Below, piece by piece: positions 2,964 to 32,109 of a stretch of DNA of 64,000 bases (positions within the stretch are counted from its first letter, which is position 1; every line of letters begins with the position of its first letter). The position numbers were made by a program, and so were the translations under genes. Source of the DNA: Streptomyces europaeiscabiei. GTDB lineage: Bacteria; Actinomycetota; Actinomycetes; Streptomycetales; Streptomycetaceae. The DNA lies in assembly GCF_036346855.1 (NCBI RefSeq), contig NZ_CP107841.1, forward strand, positions 1,612,001 through 1,676,000, in the 5' to 3' direction. Below the pieces are notes generated by a model. The model saw nothing but the letters and a program-made list of their open reading frames with translations. It did no database searches and was not told the origin of the DNA.

Positions 2964-3100
2964 CCCGGCCCTGAAGGACCGGGCTTGGAGGTAGTGCCCA
3001 GCTGGCTGCTGGGGTGGACTCCTCCGTCCAGACACCCCTATGGGGTGGCAGGGACGCGTGACTCACGCCCCGCATTCCACACGCTCTCGCCACGGGTGGC
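2960..3100 (-). ncRNA. Candidate omega (reRNA) guide RNA of TnpB
   Basis: TnpB nucleases use an RNA made from the tnpB 3' end through the element right end, with the guide taken from flanking DNA. Here that region runs leftward from about 3100 and includes the hairpin at 2964-2983. The predicted guide begins just outside the TCAA tip and would read GTTGACTTGATGGCCACGG on the minus strand (2959 downward). Position and guide are inferred from the family, not demonstrated. Confidence 0.45.
2964..2983. repeat. Subterminal hairpin, left tip of the IS605 element
   Basis: Arms CCCGG (2964-2968) and CCGGG (2979-2983) close a stem with an inner CC/GG pair and a bulged A. Hairpins at this position are what the Y1 transposase recognises. 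Immediately outside is an inverted repeat TCAAGT-CA-ACTTGA (2950-2963). Confidence 0.6.
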
Positions 3101-4195
3101 GATGTTGTGGGATGCGTTCCGGTCGGCGTGGGCAACGACCCCGCACCTCCGGCAGATGAAGAGCCCCTGGTCGACACGGTTTCGCTTGTCGACGTGGCCG
3201 CACTCGGCGCACGTCTGCGACGTGTACGCGGGATCGACGAAGACCAGGGGTACCCCGGCCCGCTTGGCCTTGTAGACGATGAAGTCTGCGAGCTGGGCGA
3301 AGGCCCAGGAGTGGAGTGCGACCCGTTGGGGCTTGCGGAGCCGTACCCGGTTGCGGATGCCCTTGAGTTCTTCGAGGGACAGGCCGCGTCCGGTGCGTTC
3401 AGCCTCGGTCACGATCGTCTTGGAGATGATGTGGTTCTGGTTGGCGGCGTGCCGCGCTTCTTTGCGGGCACGGGCCTTGAGCCGCCGCTTGGCGGACTTG
3501 GTGCGCTTCTTCTGGAGCTTGGCGCGCAGGGCAAGCTGTCGCTTGCGGTACCGGTTGAGTCCCCGCCCCGTGGCGAGGTAGCCGGTGGAGGCGGTGGCGA
3601 TGTTCTCGATGCCGAGGTCCACGCCGATGAAGCCGTCCGGCTCGTAACTCTCGGCCTCGGGCACGTCACAGGTGGCGACGAGGTAGAACACGCCGTCGCG
3701 CTGGATCAGGTCGGATTCGCCCTGCCGGTGCGCCTGGAGCGTCTTGAGCGCGTCGGCGGAGCAGGCGAAGCGGATGTTCCTGACTCGGCCGTCCACGGTC
3801 CAGACGGACACGGTCCGCTGGTCGTGCTGCCAGCTCAGACACCGGTCGTCATACGGCTGTGCGGCTTCGGGGCGAAAGGTGACCGGCTTGGACTCAGCCC
3901 TGCGGCGGCGCTTCGAGCCCTCCTTGCCGAGGTTCCCGGCACGGATGTTGGCCTTGAGCGTGGTGTACGAGTCGCGCACCTTCTTGATGACGTGTTGCGC
4001 GGCCTGCGCTCCCAGCCCACGGGTCTTGAGTTCGGCGTAGGTGTGCTTGCGCAGCTCGTACTCACGCGGCACACCGCGCTCGAACGCCACCTGTGACACC
4101 CAGTTCGCGGCATCGTTGACCGTGCGCAGGGTGCGCTCAAGCGCGGATGCCTGCACGGCGTCCGGCATGAGTTTGACCTGCGTCACGATCTTCAC
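3038..4195 (-). CDS. tnpB: RNA-guided endonuclease TnpB (IS605 OrfB)
   Basis: 385 residues, the usual TnpB length. The RuvC catalytic residues are all present: Asp193 in GVDLGIEN, Glu275/276 in LSLEELKGI, and Asp358 in HADRNASHN. A zinc ribbon sits between them (Cys329-x2-Cys332 ... Cys348-x2-Cys351). The basic N-terminal OrfB helix-turn-helix region starts MKIVTQVKLMPDAVQ. TnpB cuts DNA next to the element's target motif under guidance of an RNA from the element end, which helps retain the IS. It is transcribed away from tnpA with a 23-bp gap between starts. Nothing suggests inactivation. Confidence 0.95.
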   Translation of the reverse strand: MKIVTQVKLMPDAVQASALERTLRTVNDAANWVSQVAFERGVPREYELRKHTYAELKTRGLGAQAAQHVIKKVRDSYTTLKANIRAGNLGKEGSKRRRRAESKPVTFRPEAAQPYDDRCLSWQHDQRTVSVWTVDGRVRNIRFACSADALKTLQAHRQGESDLIQRDGVFYLVATCDVPEAESYEPDGFIGVDLGIENIATASTGYLATGRGLNRYRKRQLALRAKLQKKRTKSAKRRLKARARKEARHAANQNHIISKTIVTEAERTGRGLSLEELKGIRNRVRLRKPQRVALHSWAFAQLADFIVYKAKRAGVPLVFVDPAYTSQTCAECGHVDKRNRVDQGLFICRRCGVVAHADRNASHNIATRGESVWNAGRESRVPATP

Positions 4196-4218
4196 GAGAG
4201 TGATCGTAGCATTGATCT

Positions 4219-4647
4219 ATGTCACCACGCTGGGAGCCAAACCCCGATATCCGCAGGGGCCGTAGCGTCGTCTGCACCCTGCATGCGCACTTGGTCTTCA
4301 CCCCCAAGTACCGGCGCGGACCGTTCACCGACGAGATCCTTCGGCGCTGCGAAGAGGTCATGCGCGACGTGTGCACCGACTTCGGCGCGGAGCTGCGGGA
4401 GTTCAACGGCGAACGCGATCACGTCCACCTGCTCGTGCATTACCCGCCCAAGGTCGCCATCTCCCGGCTCGTCGGCTCCCTCAAGGGCGTCTCCGCCCGG
4501 CGCCTGCGGCAGGAGTTCCCCGGCCACATCCGCAAGTACCTGTGGGGTGAGCACTTCTGGTCGCCGTCCTACTTCGCCGCCTCATGCGGGGGCGCCCCGC
4601 TCGCCGTCATCAAGGAGTACATCGAGAACCAGAAACGTCCCGACTGA
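4219..4647 (+). CDS. tnpA: IS200/IS605 family Y1 (HUH) transposase TnpA
   Basis: 142 residues, normal for the family. The HUH metal-binding pair is His68 and His70 (DHVHLLV), and the nucleophilic tyrosine is Tyr134 in VIKEYIENQ. The family excises and inserts single-stranded circles by 5'-phosphotyrosine chemistry, using subterminal hairpins. Its divergent arrangement with tnpB defines the IS605 layout. The start codon at 4219 is used because homology (VVCTLHAHLVFTPKYRR) begins shortly after. It appears full length and probably active. Confidence 0.94.
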   Translation: MSPRWEPNPDIRRGRSVVCTLHAHLVFTPKYRRGPFTDEILRRCEEVMRDVCTDFGAELREFNGERDHVHLLVHYPPKVAISRLVGSLKGVSARRLRQEFPGHIRKYLWGEHFWSPSYFAASCGGAPLAVIKEYIENQKRPD

Positions 4648-13302: not shown

Positions 13303-14022
13303 ATGACGGTCCTGGTGATCACGGGGACGGGCACGGAGGTCGGCAAGACGGTCACCACGGCGGCCGTCGCGTCGGTGGCCCTGGCGTCCGGCCGGTCCGT
13401 GGCCGTCCTCAAACCCGCACAGACCGGTGTACGGCCGGACGAGCGCGGCGACGCGGACGAGGTGGCCCGGCTCTCGGGCGCCGTGACCGTCCGCGAACTC
13501 GCCCGCTATCCCGAGCCGTTGGCTCCCGCGACCGCCGCCCGGCGCTCCGGCCTCGCTCCGGTGCACCCCGAGGACGTCGCCGAGGCCGCTGCCAAACTGG
13601 CCGTCGACCACGCCCTGGTGCTGGTCGAGGGCGCGGGCGGTCTCCTCGTCCGCTTCGACGAGGCGGGCGGCACGCTGGCGGACACGGCCCGGCTGCTCGG
13701 CGCGCCGGTGCTCCTGGTCGCCTCCGCCGGGCTGGGCACCCTGAACACGACCGAACTGACGTCCCGCGAACTCGCCGTACGCGAGGTGGAGTTGGCGGGC
13801 GTGGTCATCGGCAGCTGGCCCACGTCCCCCGACCTGGCGTCCCGCTGCAACCTGGCGGACCTGCCGGTCGTGGCGAACGCTCCGCTGCTGGGGGCGGTGC
13901 CTGCGGGGGCGGGGGCGTTGGAGCCCCGCGAGTTCCGGGCGAGGGCCGGGGGTTGGCTGGCGCCGGCGCTGGGCGGGGTGTGGGATGCCGTTTCCTTCAG
14001 TGCCACGGGAGTTGCGCCGTAG
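13303..14022 (+). CDS. bioD: ATP-dependent dethiobiotin synthetase
   Basis: Closes the ureido ring of dethiobiotin with CO2 and ATP. The P-loop is at the start (VLVITGTGTEVGKTVTTAAVA), and VEGAGGLLVRFDE is the second family motif. 239 residues. I chose ATG 13303 because GAAAGGG lies 6 nt upstream; ATG 13285, overlapping the bioA stop, is an alternative adding six residues. Last gene of the operon; it converges on the LuxR-type gene. Confidence 0.95.
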   Translation: MTVLVITGTGTEVGKTVTTAAVASVALASGRSVAVLKPAQTGVRPDERGDADEVARLSGAVTVRELARYPEPLAPATAARRSGLAPVHPEDVAEAAAKLAVDHALVLVEGAGGLLVRFDEAGGTLADTARLLGAPVLLVASAGLGTLNTTELTSRELAVREVELAGVVIGSWPTSPDLASRCNLADLPVVANAPLLGAVPAGAGALEPREFRARAGGWLAPALGGVWDAVSFSATGVAP

Positions 14023-14069
14023 GGGTCCTGTGAGGGGCCCGCCGGGGGTTTCGTCGTGGCCGATCGCCC

Positions 14070-14088
14070 GGTTCCCCGCGCCCCTGAG
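14070..14088. repeat. Dispersed GGTTCCCCGCGCCCCTGAG repeat, copy 1
   Basis: A one-armed copy of a GC-rich intergenic repeat common in Streptomyces. A full hairpin copy is at 43354-43387 and a diverged copy near 51071-51098. It sits between the convergent bioD and regulator genes and may help end transcription. Confidence 0.5.
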
Positions 14089-14104
14089 GGAGCGCGCCCC
14101 GGCC

Positions 14105-16318
14105 TCACGTTTCCGCCTCCCCCAACAGCCGCACCAACTCGATCCTCGACCTGATCCCCAACCGGGAGAACACGCCCCGCAGATGGTGGTCGATCGTGCG
14201 CGGGCTCAGGAGCAACCTCGCGGCGATCTCCCGGTTGGTCGCGCCGTCCGCGGCCATGCGGGCGATCATGAGCTGCTGGGCCGTCAACCGGGTCGCGAGG
14301 TGCTCCGCGGCGGGGGCGGCGGAGGCGCGCTCACCCAGGGCGCGGAGTTCGGCGCGGGCCTGGGCCGCGCAGTGCGGGGAGCCGAAGTGGTCGAAGGCCT
14401 CCAGGGCGCTGTGGAGCCGGTCGCGGGCCTCGGTGCGGTTGCGGAGCCGTCGCAGGGCACTGCCGAAGAGCAGTTCGGTACGGGCGCGTTCGAAGTCACG
14501 GGTGCCGGCGGCGTGCAGGTCGAGGGCCGTGCGGTAGTGCTCGACGGCCTCCTCCCCGGTGGCGAGCAGCGCACGGCAGCGGGCGCTGAGGGCGAGGTCG
14601 TCGGCGCTGCGGACGGTGCGGGCCCAGCGGTCGTAGTCGGCGTGCGCGGCGCGGGCCACCCGGGTGTCGCCGGTGCGGACGGCGGCCTCGACGTAGTGCG
14701 GGGTGGCGATGTGCCGGACGGCCCGGTGTCCGTGCCCGGGGCCGAAGCCGGCGAGCGCGCGGAGGCGTGCGGCCGAGGCGGCGTACCGTCCGGTGCTCAG
14801 GTCGAGGAACGCGAGGGCGAACATGGCGAGCGCGGCGGGCAGTCCGAGGCCGCGTTCCAGGGCGTACGCACGGGCGGACTCGGCGCGCTCGCGGCAGACC
14901 TGCTCGTCGCCGGTGACGGCCGCGAACATCGCGAGGGCTGCCTGGAGATGGCAGGCCCCGTTGTCCTGCCCGGTGGCGTACGCCTGGCGCAGGGCGTCCA
15001 CGGTGGCGGCCTCGGCGGCCTTGGGGCGCCCGGTCCAGAACTCCGCGTAGGCCCGGAACTCCATCGCCTGCGGCACGGTGACCGTCTCTCCCCTGGCCCG
15101 CGCGGAGGCGGCGGCGCGGGCGGTGGCGGTGAAGGCGCGGGTGTGGTCGCCGAGGAGGAGGGCGGCGATCCCGGAGTGGATCAGCTGGGTGGGGTCGCCG
15201 CCGGGACCGCAGCGGCCGGCGGCGGCTTCGAGGACGTCCCGTGCGTCGTCGTAGCGTCCCTCGAACGCGGCGGCGAGTGCGCCGAGGGTGCTGGGCGGCA
15301 GGATGCCGAGGCTGTCGGCGACGGCGGCGGCCTCCCGGCAGCGGCGGAGGTCCCCCGTGTAGATGGCGGCCTCGGTGGCTCGTGCCAACAGATGGGCGGC
15401 CCTGTCCGGGGTGTGGTCGCCGACATGCCGGACGGCGGCGGTGAGCAGGGCGTCGAAGGCCTCGGCCGCGTTTCCCGCGCGCAGGGCGAGGAGGCCACCG
15501 AGGGCGTCGTCGTCGGTGGCGGCGACGAGGCGGCGGGCCCGGTCGCCGTCGCCCGACTGCCACGCCTCCGCAGCCGCCTGGGCCAGTAGGGGCATGCGTT
15601 CGGCCGGTTCGGGGGTGAGCGCGGCGGCGCGTTCGGCGAGGGCGGAGGCGAGGGTGGGGTCGCCGATGGCACGTGCCACCCGTGCCGCCAGGCGGAGTTC
15701 GGCGGTGAGGCGGCGGCTGGGTCCGAGGGCGGCGGCGGCCCGGTGCCAGGACCGGCCTGGTCTCTCGCCCTCACCGCTGAGGACCGCTGCGAGGAGGCGG
15801 TGGGCCTCGCGCCGGTCGGTCATGGACGCGGACTCGTACACGGCGATCCGGGTCCAGGCGTCCCGGAAGACGATGCCCCGGGTGGTGGCGTGCGCGAGGC
15901 CCGCCGCCTCCGCCGTGTCGAGGGGGCGGGTGTCGAGCCGGGCCGCGGTGACGGCACGCGCGTAGGCGTGGGTCGCGACCGGGTACTGGTCGGCGGCGGC
16001 GAGGAGCAGCAGGAAGCGGGTGTCGTCGGGCAGGGCCCGTACGTCCCGCCGGTGGCGTTGCAGCAGGGCGGGGGCCAGCGTCAGGGGCTCGGCGGGGAGC
16101 GGGTCGAGGCCCGTGAGCTGGCGTCGGGTCAGGGCGGCAGCGAGCTCCGCGGCGGCCCGCGGATCGCCGTGGGCGGCGTGCAGCAGGCGTACGCGCACGC
16201 CTTCGGACAGCGTGGGCGCGACGGCCGACGCTGCGTTCGGGCTCGACCACACGTTCATGGGGGGCGGTGGCGAGCGATGCGGAAGTTGTGGGGGGTTCAC
16301 CGGAGTCACCACGCTCAT
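14105..16318 (-). CDS. LuxR-family (LAL-like) regulator lacking the ATPase domain
   Basis: 737 residues. The C-terminus is a LuxR helix-turn-helix (LTAQQLMIARMAADGATNREIAARLLLSPRTIDHHLRGVFSRLGIRSRIEL). The middle is a long alpha-helical TPR-like region. The N-terminus starts at GVRVRLLHAAHGDPRAAAELAAALT, which matches the part of LAL regulators just after the nucleotide-binding domain; no Walker A is present. So it is either a naturally short member or a truncated LAL protein. Start ATG 16318 (GTG 16321 also possible). It is divergent from the secreted lipase at 16428 and may activate it, as LuxR-type LipR does in some streptomycetes. Confidence 0.85.
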   Translation of the reverse strand: MSVVTPVNPPQLPHRSPPPPMNVWSSPNAASAVAPTLSEGVRVRLLHAAHGDPRAAAELAAALTRRQLTGLDPLPAEPLTLAPALLQRHRRDVRALPDDTRFLLLLAAADQYPVATHAYARAVTAARLDTRPLDTAEAAGLAHATTRGIVFRDAWTRIAVYESASMTDRREAHRLLAAVLSGEGERPGRSWHRAAAALGPSRRLTAELRLAARVARAIGDPTLASALAERAAALTPEPAERMPLLAQAAAEAWQSGDGDRARRLVAATDDDALGGLLALRAGNAAEAFDALLTAAVRHVGDHTPDRAAHLLARATEAAIYTGDLRRCREAAAVADSLGILPPSTLGALAAAFEGRYDDARDVLEAAAGRCGPGGDPTQLIHSGIAALLLGDHTRAFTATARAAASARARGETVTVPQAMEFRAYAEFWTGRPKAAEAATVDALRQAYATGQDNGACHLQAALAMFAAVTGDEQVCRERAESARAYALERGLGLPAALAMFALAFLDLSTGRYAASAARLRALAGFGPGHGHRAVRHIATPHYVEAAVRTGDTRVARAAHADYDRWARTVRSADDLALSARCRALLATGEEAVEHYRTALDLHAAGTRDFERARTELLFGSALRRLRNRTEARDRLHSALEAFDHFGSPHCAAQARAELRALGERASAAPAAEHLATRLTAQQLMIARMAADGATNREIAARLLLSPRTIDHHLRGVFSRLGIRSRIELVRLLGEAET

Positions 16319-27887: not shown

Positions 27888-28283
27888 ATGAACGAACGCG
27901 ACGTCCTGCTCAACGAGCTCGTGCAGGGGCTGCGCCCGATGCCAGAGGGCATCGAATGGTTCGACAGCCTCGGCCACGAAGAGCAGTCCGAGGTGCTGTT
28001 GTTCCTGCGCCGTCACTGCGTCCAGGCGCGCGCCGTCACAGAGGATGCACCGGAGAGCATCCGCCGTGCCGAGCTGCGCCCGACGCATACGCCCGCAGTG
28101 CTGATCTCACGAGGCCGGATGGACGAGCAACTGGGAAAGATCGCCGGTCTCACGCCTCTCGACGAACGCCGCAAGGCGTTCAGGCTGCTGATCGCCGTGC
28201 TCACGATTGCCGACGCGCGGCGCCGCGAGCGTTTCTGTTCCGGCGGCTGCAATCACTGGTGGCACGGGCTGTCCGTCGCCTGA
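27888..28283 (+). CDS. DUF5958 family protein
   Basis: 131 residues. It closely matches my memory of DUF5958: start MNERDVLLNELVQGLRPMPEGIEWF, central ESIRRAELRPTHTPAVLI, and C-terminal RRKAFRLLIAVLTIADARRRERFCSGGCNHWWHGLS. Predicted soluble and helical. The family is restricted largely to streptomycetes, often beside mobile or accessory genes, with no known function. ATG 27888 is chosen; an upstream in-frame start lacks support. It lies 132 bp before the radical SAM gene on the same strand. Confidence 0.85.
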   Translation: MNERDVLLNELVQGLRPMPEGIEWFDSLGHEEQSEVLLFLRRHCVQARAVTEDAPESIRRAELRPTHTPAVLISRGRMDEQLGKIAGLTPLDERRKAFRLLIAVLTIADARRRERFCSGGCNHWWHGLSVA

Positions 28284-28415
28284 CAACCCAGCACCGCACT
28301 CCTGAAAGTCAGCGACAGGGCGGGGCGTACGTTGACGACGGATCGGATCAGGACACCGCGTTCCGCCTGCAGTTCGGCCCGTGTCGTCCGGGTCCCGTTC
28401 CTGCATGATGACGAC

Positions 28416-29756
28416 ATGAACCATGGCGACCAGCGCTTCCACGTCATCGTGCTGTCGAACTTCGCGAAGGGCTTCGACAAGTACGCGTTCGCTTACGGTA
28501 AGGCCGGGATTCCGGAGAGTACCTATCCCGACCGGTTCCACCTGCTGACCCGCGCGGAGTTGGGAATCGGCATCGCCAAGGCGCGGGGCCTGCTGGACCG
28601 CCTGGCCATTCCCGGCGACCGGCTGCTGGTGCTGGAAACCACGGTGGACCCCGACAAGTTGGTGCCCAACCTGTCGACCGGTCTCGGTATGGAACTGCAC
28701 GAGGCTCGCATCCGGTTGTCAGCGGTCCACGAGCTCGACCAGGCAGGCGACGAGTTCACTGTGCGCCCGACGACCGTCGAGGATGCGATGGCGGCCTCCC
28801 TGCACCTGCACGGATCGGCACAGCGTCGCTATGCCGACACGCGACCGCGCTCGGTGTCGCTTCTGCCGGTCGCCTCCGCCTGCCAGGCCCGGTGTTCGTT
28901 CTGCTTCTCCTCGGCTTCGATCTCCAGCGACCAGGCGCCGGCCCGGGTCCCGTGGGACGCGGTCGCCCAGTGGCTGGAGCTCGCCCGTGCGGCGGGCGCC
29001 GAGCGTGCGGTGATCACCGGCGGCGGGGAGCCCACGCTCATACCGTTCGAACAGCAGCTGCGACTGGTGTCCGCCTGCTCGGCGGCCTTCCCGAAGGTCG
29101 TCCTGATCACCAACGCGCACACCCTGGCGAAAGGCCTGCACGCTGACCGGGCCGACCGCCTCGCAGCCCTGAGCGCCGCGGGCCTGAGCGTGCTGGCGGT
29201 CTCCCGGCACCATCACGACGACGCCGTCAGCGAGCGGCTGATGATGCTGCGCACACCGGTGAGATCCGTGATCGACACCTGGCGCGTGGAACGTGACCGC
29301 TGGCCGGGGCTGCGGACGAGGCTGATCTGCGTGCTCCAGCACGGCGGCGTCGCCGACGCGGCCGGGGTCGCCGACTACCTTTCGTGGGCCGCGGCTCTCG
29401 GTGTCGAGGAAGTCTGCTTCAAGGAGCTCTACGTATCCACCAGCACCGAGTCGCTCTACTTCGACCGCGCCGCCAACGTGTGGAGCCGAGAGCACCAGGT
29501 GTCGCTGTCCGTCGTCACCCGGTTCGCCGAGCAGCACGGCTTCGAACTGGCGAGCCGCCTGCCCTGGGGGGCACCGGTCTACCACGGCAGTTGGGACGGG
29601 CGGCCGATACGGATCGCCGCTTACACCGAGCCCAGCCTGCTCTGGGAACGCACCAGCGGGATCGCCCGCAGCTGGAACGTCATGGCCGACGGACGCTGCT
29701 ACGCCTCCCTGGAAGACCGGGCCAGCGAGATCGTGCCGGAAGGCGCGGCGGCGTGA
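28416..29756 (+). CDS. Radical SAM protein with a novel N-terminal domain
   Basis: 446 residues. The radical SAM cluster motif is Cys156-x3-Cys160-x2-Cys163 (ACQARCSFC), followed by the SAM-binding GGGEPTL (residues 202-208). The first 140 residues (NFAKGFDKYAFAYGKAG ... LHLHGSAQRRY) match no domain I recognise. Late cysteines in GVEEVCFKEL and ADGRCYASLED hint at a partial twitch-like extension, but there are too few for a full SPASM domain. No precursor peptide gene is visible. ATG 28416 fits best; the frame opens at 28332. The stop overlaps the aminotransferase start (GTGA). Confidence 0.85.
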   Translation: MNHGDQRFHVIVLSNFAKGFDKYAFAYGKAGIPESTYPDRFHLLTRAELGIGIAKARGLLDRLAIPGDRLLVLETTVDPDKLVPNLSTGLGMELHEARIRLSAVHELDQAGDEFTVRPTTVEDAMAASLHLHGSAQRRYADTRPRSVSLLPVASACQARCSFCFSSASISSDQAPARVPWDAVAQWLELARAAGAERAVITGGGEPTLIPFEQQLRLVSACSAAFPKVVLITNAHTLAKGLHADRADRLAALSAAGLSVLAVSRHHHDDAVSERLMMLRTPVRSVIDTWRVERDRWPGLRTRLICVLQHGGVADAAGVADYLSWAAALGVEEVCFKELYVSTSTESLYFDRAANVWSREHQVSLSVVTRFAEQHGFELASRLPWGAPVYHGSWDGRPIRIAAYTEPSLLWERTSGIARSWNVMADGRCYASLEDRASEIVPEGAAA

Positions 29757-30769
29757 GGTTCGAGGAGTTCCAGGAATTCCGGCAGCGCCGGCTCAGTGCT
29801 TCCTCGTCGCTTCTGGACTCCGCCGAGACCAACGTGTACCGGGCGCTCGCTCCGATGCGACCGGCACCGCCGGCCGACATGAGTACGGTGCACCGGTGCG
29901 ATCTCGCCCGTGCCTGGCTGGGGCGCTTCGAGCTGCCGGAAGAGTGGTCCGGCCACGCCATGGTCTGTCGCGGGGTCCGGCACGGGCTCGGTGTGGTGTT
30001 CCACTGGCTGCGCGCCGTGCAGGCGCGGTTGTGGCTGCCCAGTGACGTGTACCCGGTCTACTTCGAGCTGGCCCGCGCTGCGGGCCTGGCGCCCGCGTCC
30101 TACCCGACACTGCCGGCGCCTGCTCTGCCGAGGTCGCCGGCGGACGACCGGCCCGAATACCTGCTGCTCGCCAACCCCAGCAAGCCGCTCGGCCGATACC
30201 TGTCCGATGCCGAGTGCGCCACGGTGATCTCGTGGTTGCGGGAATCACCCCGCCGTCGCCTGCTGATCGACAGCGTCTACGACCTGGGAGCCCCGTTCGC
30301 TGCAGGCACACGGGTACTGCTGGACACCGGTCGTGCGGTCCTACTGCATTCGGTCACCAAGGGATGGCTGTGGCCCCGCACATTCGGCGTGGTCCTGCTG
30401 GGTCCGGCGCACGCCGAATTGGCCGAAGCGTTCCGGGCTGATCCGCCGACGCCGGCACAGCTGAGGCTCGCCGACCGTCTGCTGACCGAGCACAGCGACG
30501 TACCCCGGCAGGTCGTCGACGAACTGGCCGCACGGGCTGAGCGGCTGTTCGAACGGTTGCCGGACGAGGTGCTCGGGGCGATTCCCACGGCGAGCCGGAC
30601 GTGTCCCGGCAACTACTTCTTCCCGGTTGAAATCCCCGCGGAGACGCTCCGGCGTGAGTGCGGCGTGCTCGCCGTGCCGGTCAGCGTGTTCGGGGAGAGC
30701 AGTTGGTCCGGCTCCATCCTGACCAGCCTTGCCGACGCTTTCGGCCCGCCGCCGACGGCGGCGCGATGA
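29753..30769 (+). CDS. PLP-dependent aminotransferase-like protein, fold type I
   Basis: 338 residues, GTG start overlapping the previous stop by 4 nt. Class I/II motifs: NPSKPLG (141-147, the NPxxPxG loop), Asp173 and Tyr176 in LLIDSVYDLG (pyridine N and O3' contacts), and the Schiff-base lysine Lys203 in HSVTKGWLWPR. It is shorter than most class I enzymes and has an unusual N-terminal 130 residues, so the substrate pocket may be remodelled. The nearest general match is the HisC-like group. It likely acts on the product or substrate of the adjacent radical SAM enzyme. Confidence 0.85.
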   Translation: MRFEEFQEFRQRRLSASSSLLDSAETNVYRALAPMRPAPPADMSTVHRCDLARAWLGRFELPEEWSGHAMVCRGVRHGLGVVFHWLRAVQARLWLPSDVYPVYFELARAAGLAPASYPTLPAPALPRSPADDRPEYLLLANPSKPLGRYLSDAECATVISWLRESPRRRLLIDSVYDLGAPFAAGTRVLLDTGRAVLLHSVTKGWLWPRTFGVVLLGPAHAELAEAFRADPPTPAQLRLADRLLTEHSDVPRQVVDELAARAERLFERLPDEVLGAIPTASRTCPGNYFFPVEIPAETLRRECGVLAVPVSVFGESSWSGSILTSLADAFGPPPTAAR

Positions 30770-31575
30770 AGCCCCTGGAGGACCTGGCCGTATACGACGA
30801 TGCGGACTTCTACGATCAGGAGTTCGCCGCGCGCACCCACGACATCCCGTTCTTCCTCGGCCAAGCGGTCCGGGCGGGCGGTCCGGTCCTGGAGGTGGCC
30901 TGCGGAACCGGGCGCATCACCCTGCCGATCGCGCGGGCGGGTGTCGAGATCACCGGGCTCGACATCATGCCCTCGATGCTCGCGCGTGCCCGTCAGCGGG
31001 CCGAGGACGAGCGACTGGCAGTGGAGTGGCTGGAACAGGACTGCCGAGACATCCGCTCCGACAGGCGCTTCGCCCTGGTGTTCTCGGCGACCAACGCGAT
31101 GCAGCACCTGCACGACCTGGATTCCGTGGTCGCCTTCCTCGCCTCGGCGCGAAACGTACTGCGACCGGGCGGGACCCTGATCCTGGACGTGTTCAACCCC
31201 GACATGGCCAAGCTGTGCCGGCTCCCCGAGTCGCCCTACCACCACAAGTCGGTCGCGGACCGGGACGGGGCCAGGCTCGACGTGCGAGCGACGACCGGCT
31301 ACGACGCCGCCGCCCAGGTGCTGCGCTTCACGTTGGACTACCTACGCGACGGCGTGTGCGTACGCACCAAGAAAGTCAGCATGCGCTGCTTCTTTCCCGA
31401 GGAACTCCTGGCGCTCTGCCGGCTGGCCGGTCTCGACGTCGCGCAGCGCTACGGGGACTACGACCAATCCCTGTTCACGAGCACCTCGCCGAAGCAGCTC
31501 CTGTTCTGCCACTCCCGAACCGCCGACGGCCAGATCGGCGATCCGCCGCCGGTACCGGTCAGGCATCCGAGCTGA
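30766..31575 (+). CDS. Class I SAM-dependent methyltransferase of the cassette operon
   Basis: 269 residues. Motif I is VLEVACGTGRITLPIA (41-56), then ITGLDIMPSML and LVFSATNAMQHLHDLD, with RNVLRPGGTLILDVFNPDM as motif III. Its ATG overlaps the aminotransferase stop by 4 nt, so the three enzymes are translationally coupled. A small-molecule methyltransferase is likely; the tail ends in a proline-rich PPPVPVRHPS. Confidence 0.9.
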   Translation: MKPLEDLAVYDDADFYDQEFAARTHDIPFFLGQAVRAGGPVLEVACGTGRITLPIARAGVEITGLDIMPSMLARARQRAEDERLAVEWLEQDCRDIRSDRRFALVFSATNAMQHLHDLDSVVAFLASARNVLRPGGTLILDVFNPDMAKLCRLPESPYHHKSVADRDGARLDVRATTGYDAAAQVLRFTLDYLRDGVCVRTKKVSMRCFFPEELLALCRLAGLDVAQRYGDYDQSLFTSTSPKQLLFCHSRTADGQIGDPPPVPVRHPS

Positions 31576-31650
31576 GCCGGCCCCGCATTCCGGGCAACAT
31601 GCCTGTTCGGAGGCCGCACGAGCGGTGCTTCTCGCTGTCGCCCCCGCGCT

Positions 31651-31675
31651 CCGGACTGGTTGACCACCAGTCCGG
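31651..31675. repeat. Hairpin at the right end of the cassette
   Basis: Perfect 10-bp arms CCGGACTGGT / ACCAGTCCGG around TGACC, ending 2 bp before the right ACGGC. It may be a recombination signal or the terminator of the operon, which ends at 31575. Confidence 0.65.
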
Positions 31676-31677
31676 GT

Positions 31678-31733
31678 ACGGCATGTCCGCGAAGAGACCC
31701 GAGTTGCTGCCGTACGAAGGCCCACTAGCGTAG
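31678..31733 (+). pseudogene. Stranded 3' end of the SGNH hydrolase gene
   Basis: Encodes MSAKRPELLPYEGPLA and a TAG stop. In the frame of the SGNH gene, joined at ACGGC, it gives ...RSSGDG-MSAKRPELLPYEGPLA. There is no ribosome site or promoter of its own. It marks the right border of the cassette. Confidence 0.72.
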
Positions 31734-31758
31734 GGAGCCGCCGAACCGGGAGGCACGT

Positions 31759-32109
31759 GTGACCACGACCGTGATCAACCTCAAGGGCCGCATCCGCGAC
31801 TTCGGCCCCCGGCTGGAGTTCGCCCCCGGCGACCTGGTGTACATCGGCCGCCGCTGGACCATGGGCCACTGGGACCTGCCGCAGCATCCGCTGTTCAACC
31901 CGTTCCAGTACGACACCGAGAAGAAGAAACGCGACGGGACGCGGGCCGAGATCATGGCGAAGTACCGGGAGTATCTGATGGCCGACCCCGAGCTGCTGGC
32001 CCTGGTGCCGGAGCTGCGCGGGAAGACCCTGGCCTGCTGGTGCGCGCCGGAGCCCTGCCACGGGGACATCCTGGCGGAGATCGCCGACGCGTCGGGCTCC
32101 TCTTCGTAG
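31759..32109 (+). CDS. DUF4326 family protein
   Basis: 116 residues, GTG start with GGGAGG upstream. Conserved features are VYIGRRWTMGHWDLPQHPLFNPF, a central RAEIMAKYREYLM, and the terminal ELRGKTLACWCAPEPCHGDILAEIA with a Cys-Trp-Cys and Cys-His pair. Function unknown; the domain is also found in phage proteins. It keeps its usual place before purB. Confidence 0.9.
   Translation: MTTTVINLKGRIRDFGPRLEFAPGDLVYIGRRWTMGHWDLPQHPLFNPFQYDTEKKKRDGTRAEIMAKYREYLMADPELLALVPELRGKTLACWCAPEPCHGDILAEIADASGSSS

Follow-up and report, generated by a model that had tools for sequence, protein, structure and literature searches.

Results

Organization of the RS-AT-MT locus

A stretch of 64,000 nucleotides from Streptomyces europaeiscabiei (contig NZ_CP107841.1, positions 1,612,001 to 1,676,000; hereafter the window, with positions counted from its first letter) carries three consecutive genes on its plus strand. 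These encode a radical S-adenosylmethionine (SAM) protein, RS (28416..29756; 446 amino acids (aa), ATG start), a fold-type-I pyridoxal phosphate (PLP) enzyme, AT (29753..30769; 338 aa, GTG start), and a class I SAM methyltransferase, MT (30766..31575; 269 aa, ATG start), which is facultative. An earlier note on this DNA had described three genes overlapping by 4 nt, and both junctions agree with it: RS and AT share GTGA (29753-29756), AT and MT share ATGA (30766-30769). Between the window and its relatives, dN/dS was 0.15-0.33 for RS and 0.23-0.39 for AT (nine comparisons each) and 0.19-0.38 for MT (five comparisons). Because these ratios are low and the genes recur jointly in unrelated genomes, the three-gene unit is not a chance arrangement.

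The survey of unrelated loci that the note had called for was carried out, and the RS-AT pair was found to recur. AT adjoins RS in 51 of the 52 outside loci found with RS; among these 51, L012 has an AT with an internal deletion, and L051 and L052 hold the RS end only. The exception, L053, is a 59-residue match to RS (41%) without AT and is probably no member of the module. On one contig of a metagenome-assembled genome (MAG; L044), a single frame runs without a break through AT and RS, a natural AT-RS fusion unless a sequencing error joined the genes. The constant unit is RS plus AT, making a module of two genes with an optional MT, and the module itself is well supported. The 25 largest groups of neighbours included no further gene family (at least 80 aa) common to unrelated loci, and a wider conserved cluster in actinomycetes was rejected on this ground. 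The note had seen no peptide precursor, carrier or transporter, which holds within the same comparison; shorter peptides lay outside it. As for a cluster for a ribosomally synthesized and post-translationally modified peptide (RiPP), no precursor gene was noticed beside the enzymes among open reading frames of at least 80 aa.

RS is a radical SAM protein with an unassigned N-terminal domain

RS matches Radical_SAM (PF04055) over residues 152-293 with 41.9 bits against a cut-off of 29.5. In sequence alignment, the 4Fe-4S cluster motif CX3CX2C is formed by C156, C160 and C163 in CQARCSFC (28881..28904, plus strand) and is invariant in 24 of 24 rows. The motif and the domain match place RS in the radical SAM superfamily. 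The N-terminal domain, residues 1-143 (28416..28844, plus strand; motif LSNFARGFDKY...Y.KA.IPEST.PDRF), is conserved across 15 rows. With an E threshold of 5, this region of the window protein drew no Pfam family; in 15 relatives it gave four scattered matches, the best being FtsK_gamma (E 0.0096, in 2 of the 15). Assignment to a known family was dropped for want of a Pfam match of weight, so that the domain is as unrecognized as the note had found it.

Among the best 25 NCBIfam models none reached its cut-off with RS, in keeping with the note's view of an undescribed radical SAM enzyme. Viperin (NF038283) came first with 34.3 bits against 180; TrsS (28.9 bits) and MoaA (TIGR02666; 28.2 bits against 284.05) scored not far below it. 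A structure model of RS (mean confidence pLDDT 88.5) matched GDGT-MAS first, with SuiB, viperin and MoaA tied and BlsE and DesII also present; the matches cover mostly residues 136-446. The modelled fold alone does not decide the substrate class, as a lipid enzyme, GDGT-MAS, leads and one of the tied matches, SuiB, is a RiPP enzyme. An auxiliary Fe-S cluster formed by C305, C334 and C428 was considered and dropped since a viral RS lacks C428.

AT lacks the carboxylate arginines

The short aminotransferase of the earlier note is AT. Its match to Aminotran_1_2 (PF00155) is modest, 33.8 bits against a cut-off of 19.7, and no NCBIfam model among the matches listed reaches its cut-off. The predicted PLP lysine, K203 (30359..30361, plus strand), aligns with the lysine of canonical aminotransferases, and K203, D173 and Y176 are invariant in 23 rows. 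AT therefore has the class I/II aminotransferase fold by its PF00155 match and its PLP-binding Lys, Asp and Tyr. In sequence alignment, the position near the C-terminus that holds the α-carboxylate arginine in canonical enzymes is Leu, Val, Ile or Ala in 23 of 23 AT rows. It is Arg in the four usable canonical references from the same genome (12 were fetched and six passed the filter, of which two, L123 and L124, were unusable). Both carboxylate-arginine positions, which we take to be Arg266 and Arg386, are other than Arg in all 23 rows. AT thus does not have the C-terminal carboxylate arginine of a canonical α-amino-acid aminotransferase.

MT is optional

MT matches Methyltransf_25 (PF13649) with 79 bits. 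Its nearest named relatives are the daptide RiPP methyltransferase NF041820 (97.1 bits against a cut-off of 175, among the best 25 NCBIfam models) and, in PDB, CcbJ (E 2e-20); unlike in the daptide system, the score here stays below the cut-off and no precursor was noticed. Both relatives are presumably N-methyltransferases, CcbJ coming from an antibiotic pathway. The three genes do not always stay together. MT is intact in 20 of the 52 outside loci, replaced by a divergent methyltransferase (25-26% identity) in L041, and broken or a remnant in L003 (internal deletion), L014 and L051 (frameshift). The other 28 loci, L053 included, gave no MT match; L028, counted here, has as its sole methyltransferase match one of 28%, about 6 kb off.

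In the 23 actinomycete loci where MT is missing or broken, remnants of its 5' end were detected in L006 (40 nt, E 8e-14), L011 (45 nt, E 4e-11) and L014 (first 86 nt, E 6e-19). L005 has a weak trace of 26 nt (E 1.4e-4), to be read beside the best control with reversed MT (4.8e-4; control matches in three loci). With broken copies scored as absent, a quick RS tree of weak support, built without L051-L053, L101, L104, L125 and L126, shows at least 11 changes in the presence of MT. The remnants, the breaks and the changes on the tree together show that MT is optional and has been lost repeatedly. Purifying selection on RS and AT persists in four MT-less pairs (dN/dS 0.16-0.22 and 0.25-0.30, respectively).

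The actinomycete module behaves as a mobile cassette

Besides actinomycetes and proteobacteria, the module occurs in Polyangium, in MAGs labelled Bacteroidota and Verrucomicrobiota, and on a giant virus contig. Five of the 37 actinomycete loci (L002, L003, L004, L008, L029) have the same genomic site as the window. For the remaining 32, the cassette alone is similar to the window at the DNA level; the similarity begins at 28312-28437 (at 29492 in L051, cut by its contig) and stops close to the end of AT (30743-30850) or of MT (31510-31671). RS of the window is 94, 93 and 91% identical to that of Embleya L013, Kitasatospora L005 and Streptacidiphilus L021. A neighbouring protein, judged by eye to be adenylosuccinate-lyase-like, is less similar in these comparisons (84, 82 and 83%), as horizontal transfer of the cassette would predict. 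The opposite pattern is seen in L002 (RS 97%, lyase-like protein 99%), L006 (92 and 96%) and L031 (79 and 86%), and L028 has no clear counterpart of the lyase-like protein (best 29%). Two Embleya records that carry the cassette are labelled plasmids (3.1 and 5.7 Mb).

Occurrence is sporadic. With the query's own genome included throughout, 15 carriers were counted among 392 genomes of the genus, 32 among 297 in the family sample and 2 among 296 in the phylum sample. For queries elsewhere the counts were 1/274 in the class and 3/200 in the family of G923, 1/117 and 1/120 in the families of G922 and G925, and 6/115 in the order of G928, two of the six being of a distant type. INPHARED phages gave no match, and a search of virus contigs with AT returned solely the virus found with RS. 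The order of the Polyangium genome also holds distant radical SAM genes (L102, L103) that match the RS core at 34-40% and leave the N-terminal domain unmatched; they were rejected as members of the module, having the core match only and no AT match nearby.

A conserved 11-mer, TGCATGATGAC (28402..28412, plus strand), ends 3 bases 5' of the RS start codon. Of 36 actinomycete loci, 28 have an exact copy directly 5' of RS, at -14 from the match start in 27 and at -26 in one, and no second plus-strand copy occurs in loci L002-L053 (846,014 bases). The position and conservation of TGCATGATGAC would fit the -10 region of a leaderless mRNA. A scan of 28200-31800 found no sigma-70 consensus promoter and no terminator, against 0.2 and 1.0 expected; it is therefore conservation that carries the promoter reading. 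A riboswitch search in eight loci found none, the sole RNA match being one tRNA in L043. With its sharp ends and promoter-like block, the actinomycete module is a mobile cassette.

NAD and ADP-ribose genes beside the module

Outside the actinomycetes, genes of nicotinamide adenine dinucleotide (NAD) and ADP-ribose metabolism recur around the module of four proteobacterial genera. In Dyella (L038) and Ralstonia (L039), Pfam places a CTP_transf_like+NUDIX gene, which we call the NMNAT-Nudix type, and NAMPT directly 5' of RS-AT-MT. Searches with tblastn gave the order NMNAT-NAMPT-RS at two further loci, both belonging to the Ralstonia genome's family; L100 has AT and MT, and the contig of L104, whose genome is probably that of L052, ends inside RS. 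In an Aquabacterium MAG (L040), RS-AT-MT is preceded by genes for NAD synthase and CTP_transf_like+NUDIX, the latter overlapping RS by 14 nt, and followed by DUF4291, KptA and Macro. In Andreprevotia (L037) the 5' genes encode an ADP-ribosylglycohydrolase, NrtR-NUDIX, microbial PARG, KptA and a phosphatase. G922 and G923 have two NAPRTase-family matches each, one of which adjoins RS.

On the virus contig (L078/G920, IMG/VR, 465,259 bp), RS and AT overlap by 4 nt. Some 265 kb from them lie NAD synthase, NAPRTase, NUDIX and CTP_transf_like genes together with an isochorismatase-family match below its cut-off. In the Verrucomicrobiota MAG (L043) the neighbours are of phage type, five of the seven scanned matching PHROGs, including HNH and a minor-head-protein stretch. 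Tenacibaculum, Polyangium, Agitococcus and L044 showed no NAD genes near the module; Nitrospirillum has a NUDIX match below cut-off as its sole NAD-type neighbour, and in L101, from the Polyangium order, MT is missing beside RS and AT and the NAD-gene queries matched nothing.

Among actinomycetes, the sole sign of the link is a DUF4326 gene (31759..32109, plus strand; PF14216, 72.2 bits), 183 bp 3' of the module. It adjoins the cassette also in L002, L008 and L029, all three at the window's genomic site; it is possibly linked to the module and was kept out of the module count. An excerpt of PMC9503650 proposes for DUF4326 the processing of ribose-linked phosphates of ADP-ribose.

Several other features were observed. 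A DUF5958 gene (27888-28283, 145.7 bits) lies directly 5' of the cassette in the window and adjoins it in L002 and L004, both at the same site. By eye, 3038-4647 of the window reads as an IS200/IS605-type pair (TnpB-like and TnpA-like). Two virus contigs of 216 and 205 kb (L080:7917-8816, L081:7893-8804) hold a different radical SAM gene, about 30% identical to the viral RS core and, in L081, matching Radical_SAM. Near it lie CTP_transf_like+NUDIX, KptA and NAMPT (Pfam) in L080 and NMNAT- and NAMPT-like genes (by eye) in L081, and both contigs also show, by eye, an RlmN-like radical SAM gene. The L078 contig has an apparent class I lysyl-tRNA synthetase at 13648-15327, again by eye.

Discussion

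Beyond the observed gene structure, linkage and evolution, we infer the chemistry, its order, the substrate and the biological role. We tentatively favour a pathway in which RS oxidizes an NAD- or ADP-ribose-type nucleotide by radical chemistry, AT aminates it and MT, where present, adds an N-methyl group. A nucleotide is suggested by the NAD and ADP-ribose neighbours and, more weakly, by the radical SAM fold. RS would cleave SAM at its 4Fe-4S cluster to give a 5'-deoxyadenosyl radical, which would take a hydrogen from NAD, nicotinamide mononucleotide (NMN) or ADP-ribose, most likely at the ribose and less likely at the pyridine, leaving a carbonyl or dehydrated product. Recognition of the substrate probably falls to the N-terminal domain. 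AT, without the usual carboxylate arginine, would aminate the carbonyl made by RS, and MT, where present, would N-methylate the new amine. Taken further, the product may be an aminated, sometimes N-methylated NAD or ADP-ribose derivative, a new class of modified dinucleotide of bacteria and giant viruses that shields, tags or signals through the NAD pool in host-virus conflict; this we consider unlikely and offer as conjecture.

A stand-alone specialized-metabolite pathway would apply the same radical oxidation, transamination and N-methylation to a small molecule unrelated to NAD, such as an amino acid or sugar. The solitary, mobile actinomycete cassette with its own promoter-like block, its sporadic occurrence in the genus and the resemblance of MT to CcbJ speak for this pathway, which is nevertheless somewhat unlikely: no transporter, carrier or regulator family is common to unrelated loci among the 25 largest groups, AT has no amino-acid carboxylate arginine, and the NAD and ADP-ribose neighbours of four genera are left unexplained. 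The general idea of the earlier note, modification of a small molecule by radical chemistry, amination and methylation, stands as an interpretation. Its suggestion of an amino acid is weakened, because the arginine is missing in every AT row and the repeated neighbours outside the actinomycetes are NAD and ADP-ribose genes.

Defence or counter-defence by a nucleotide analogue, with a viperin-like product harming phage replication or a virus-borne module shielding NAD from host NADases, appears distinctly unlikely. The module is sporadic and mobile, it occurs on a virus contig and beside phage-type genes, viperin is the best NCBIfam match of RS, and the PADLOC model pVip matches RS of both the window (E 7.8e-9) and the virus (E 2.7e-10). 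However, RS scores far under the viperin cut-off with TrsS and MoaA nearly equal, the PADLOC match of MT (mad2, 70.6 bits) spans a general methyltransferase stretch, and PADLOC was applied to one neighbour, a LeoA-like one in L007. We know of no viperin that needs an AT. The L007 gene (11682-13562, 3' of the cassette) is itself a weak match to LeoA/LeoBC, a dynamin-like defence system, with 39.4 bits. RNA (tRNA) modification, in which RS would modify a base and AT and MT decorate it, is very unlikely: the gene for the RNA 2'-phosphotransferase KptA lies within 8 kb in L037, L040, L100 and L104, but KptA is itself an NAD-using enzyme, Pfam scans recognized no RNA-binding domain, and sporadic presence would be unusual for tRNA modification.

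The favoured action on an NAD- or ADP-ribose-type nucleotide can be set beside known systems. Viperin and MoaA, radical SAM enzymes acting on nucleotides, resemble RS in core fold, as other radical SAM enzymes do equally; RS differs in its extra conserved 143-residue N-terminal domain, its PLP partner and scores far under both cut-offs. The pairings BtrN/BtrS and BlsE/BlsH, and DesII, reportedly serve aminoglycoside and nucleoside antibiotic routes. They share with RS-AT the logic of radical oxidation or elimination followed by PLP-dependent amination and sometimes N-methylation, whereas the module shows no conserved antibiotic cluster around it among the 25 largest neighbour groups and consists of two or three genes only. 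As described in an excerpt of PMC11610977, the PLP enzyme SbzP joins NAD and SAM in altemicidin biosynthesis, a precedent for NAD as a building block; unlike for AT, that excerpt mentions no radical SAM partner, and the likeness is one of description. Phage NAD synthesis and NAD-ADP-ribose networks, in excerpts of PMC9503650 and PMC7824862, have NAMPT/NMNAT-Nudix, NrtR, DUF4326 and ADP-ribose-processing parts, all in common with the neighbourhoods of the module; the word 'radical' is absent from the main text of both papers. Among the open-access papers listed by literature searches, no title or abstract start described the module, a scope outside which most subscription papers and all bioRxiv preprints lie.

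RS represents a radical SAM family without an NCBIfam model, and its PLP partner is constant. Should the module act on NAD, it would open a new branch of NAD metabolism and provide nucleotide chemistry with a new pair of enzymes. Otherwise it would still be a minimal, self-contained pathway that is easy to express.

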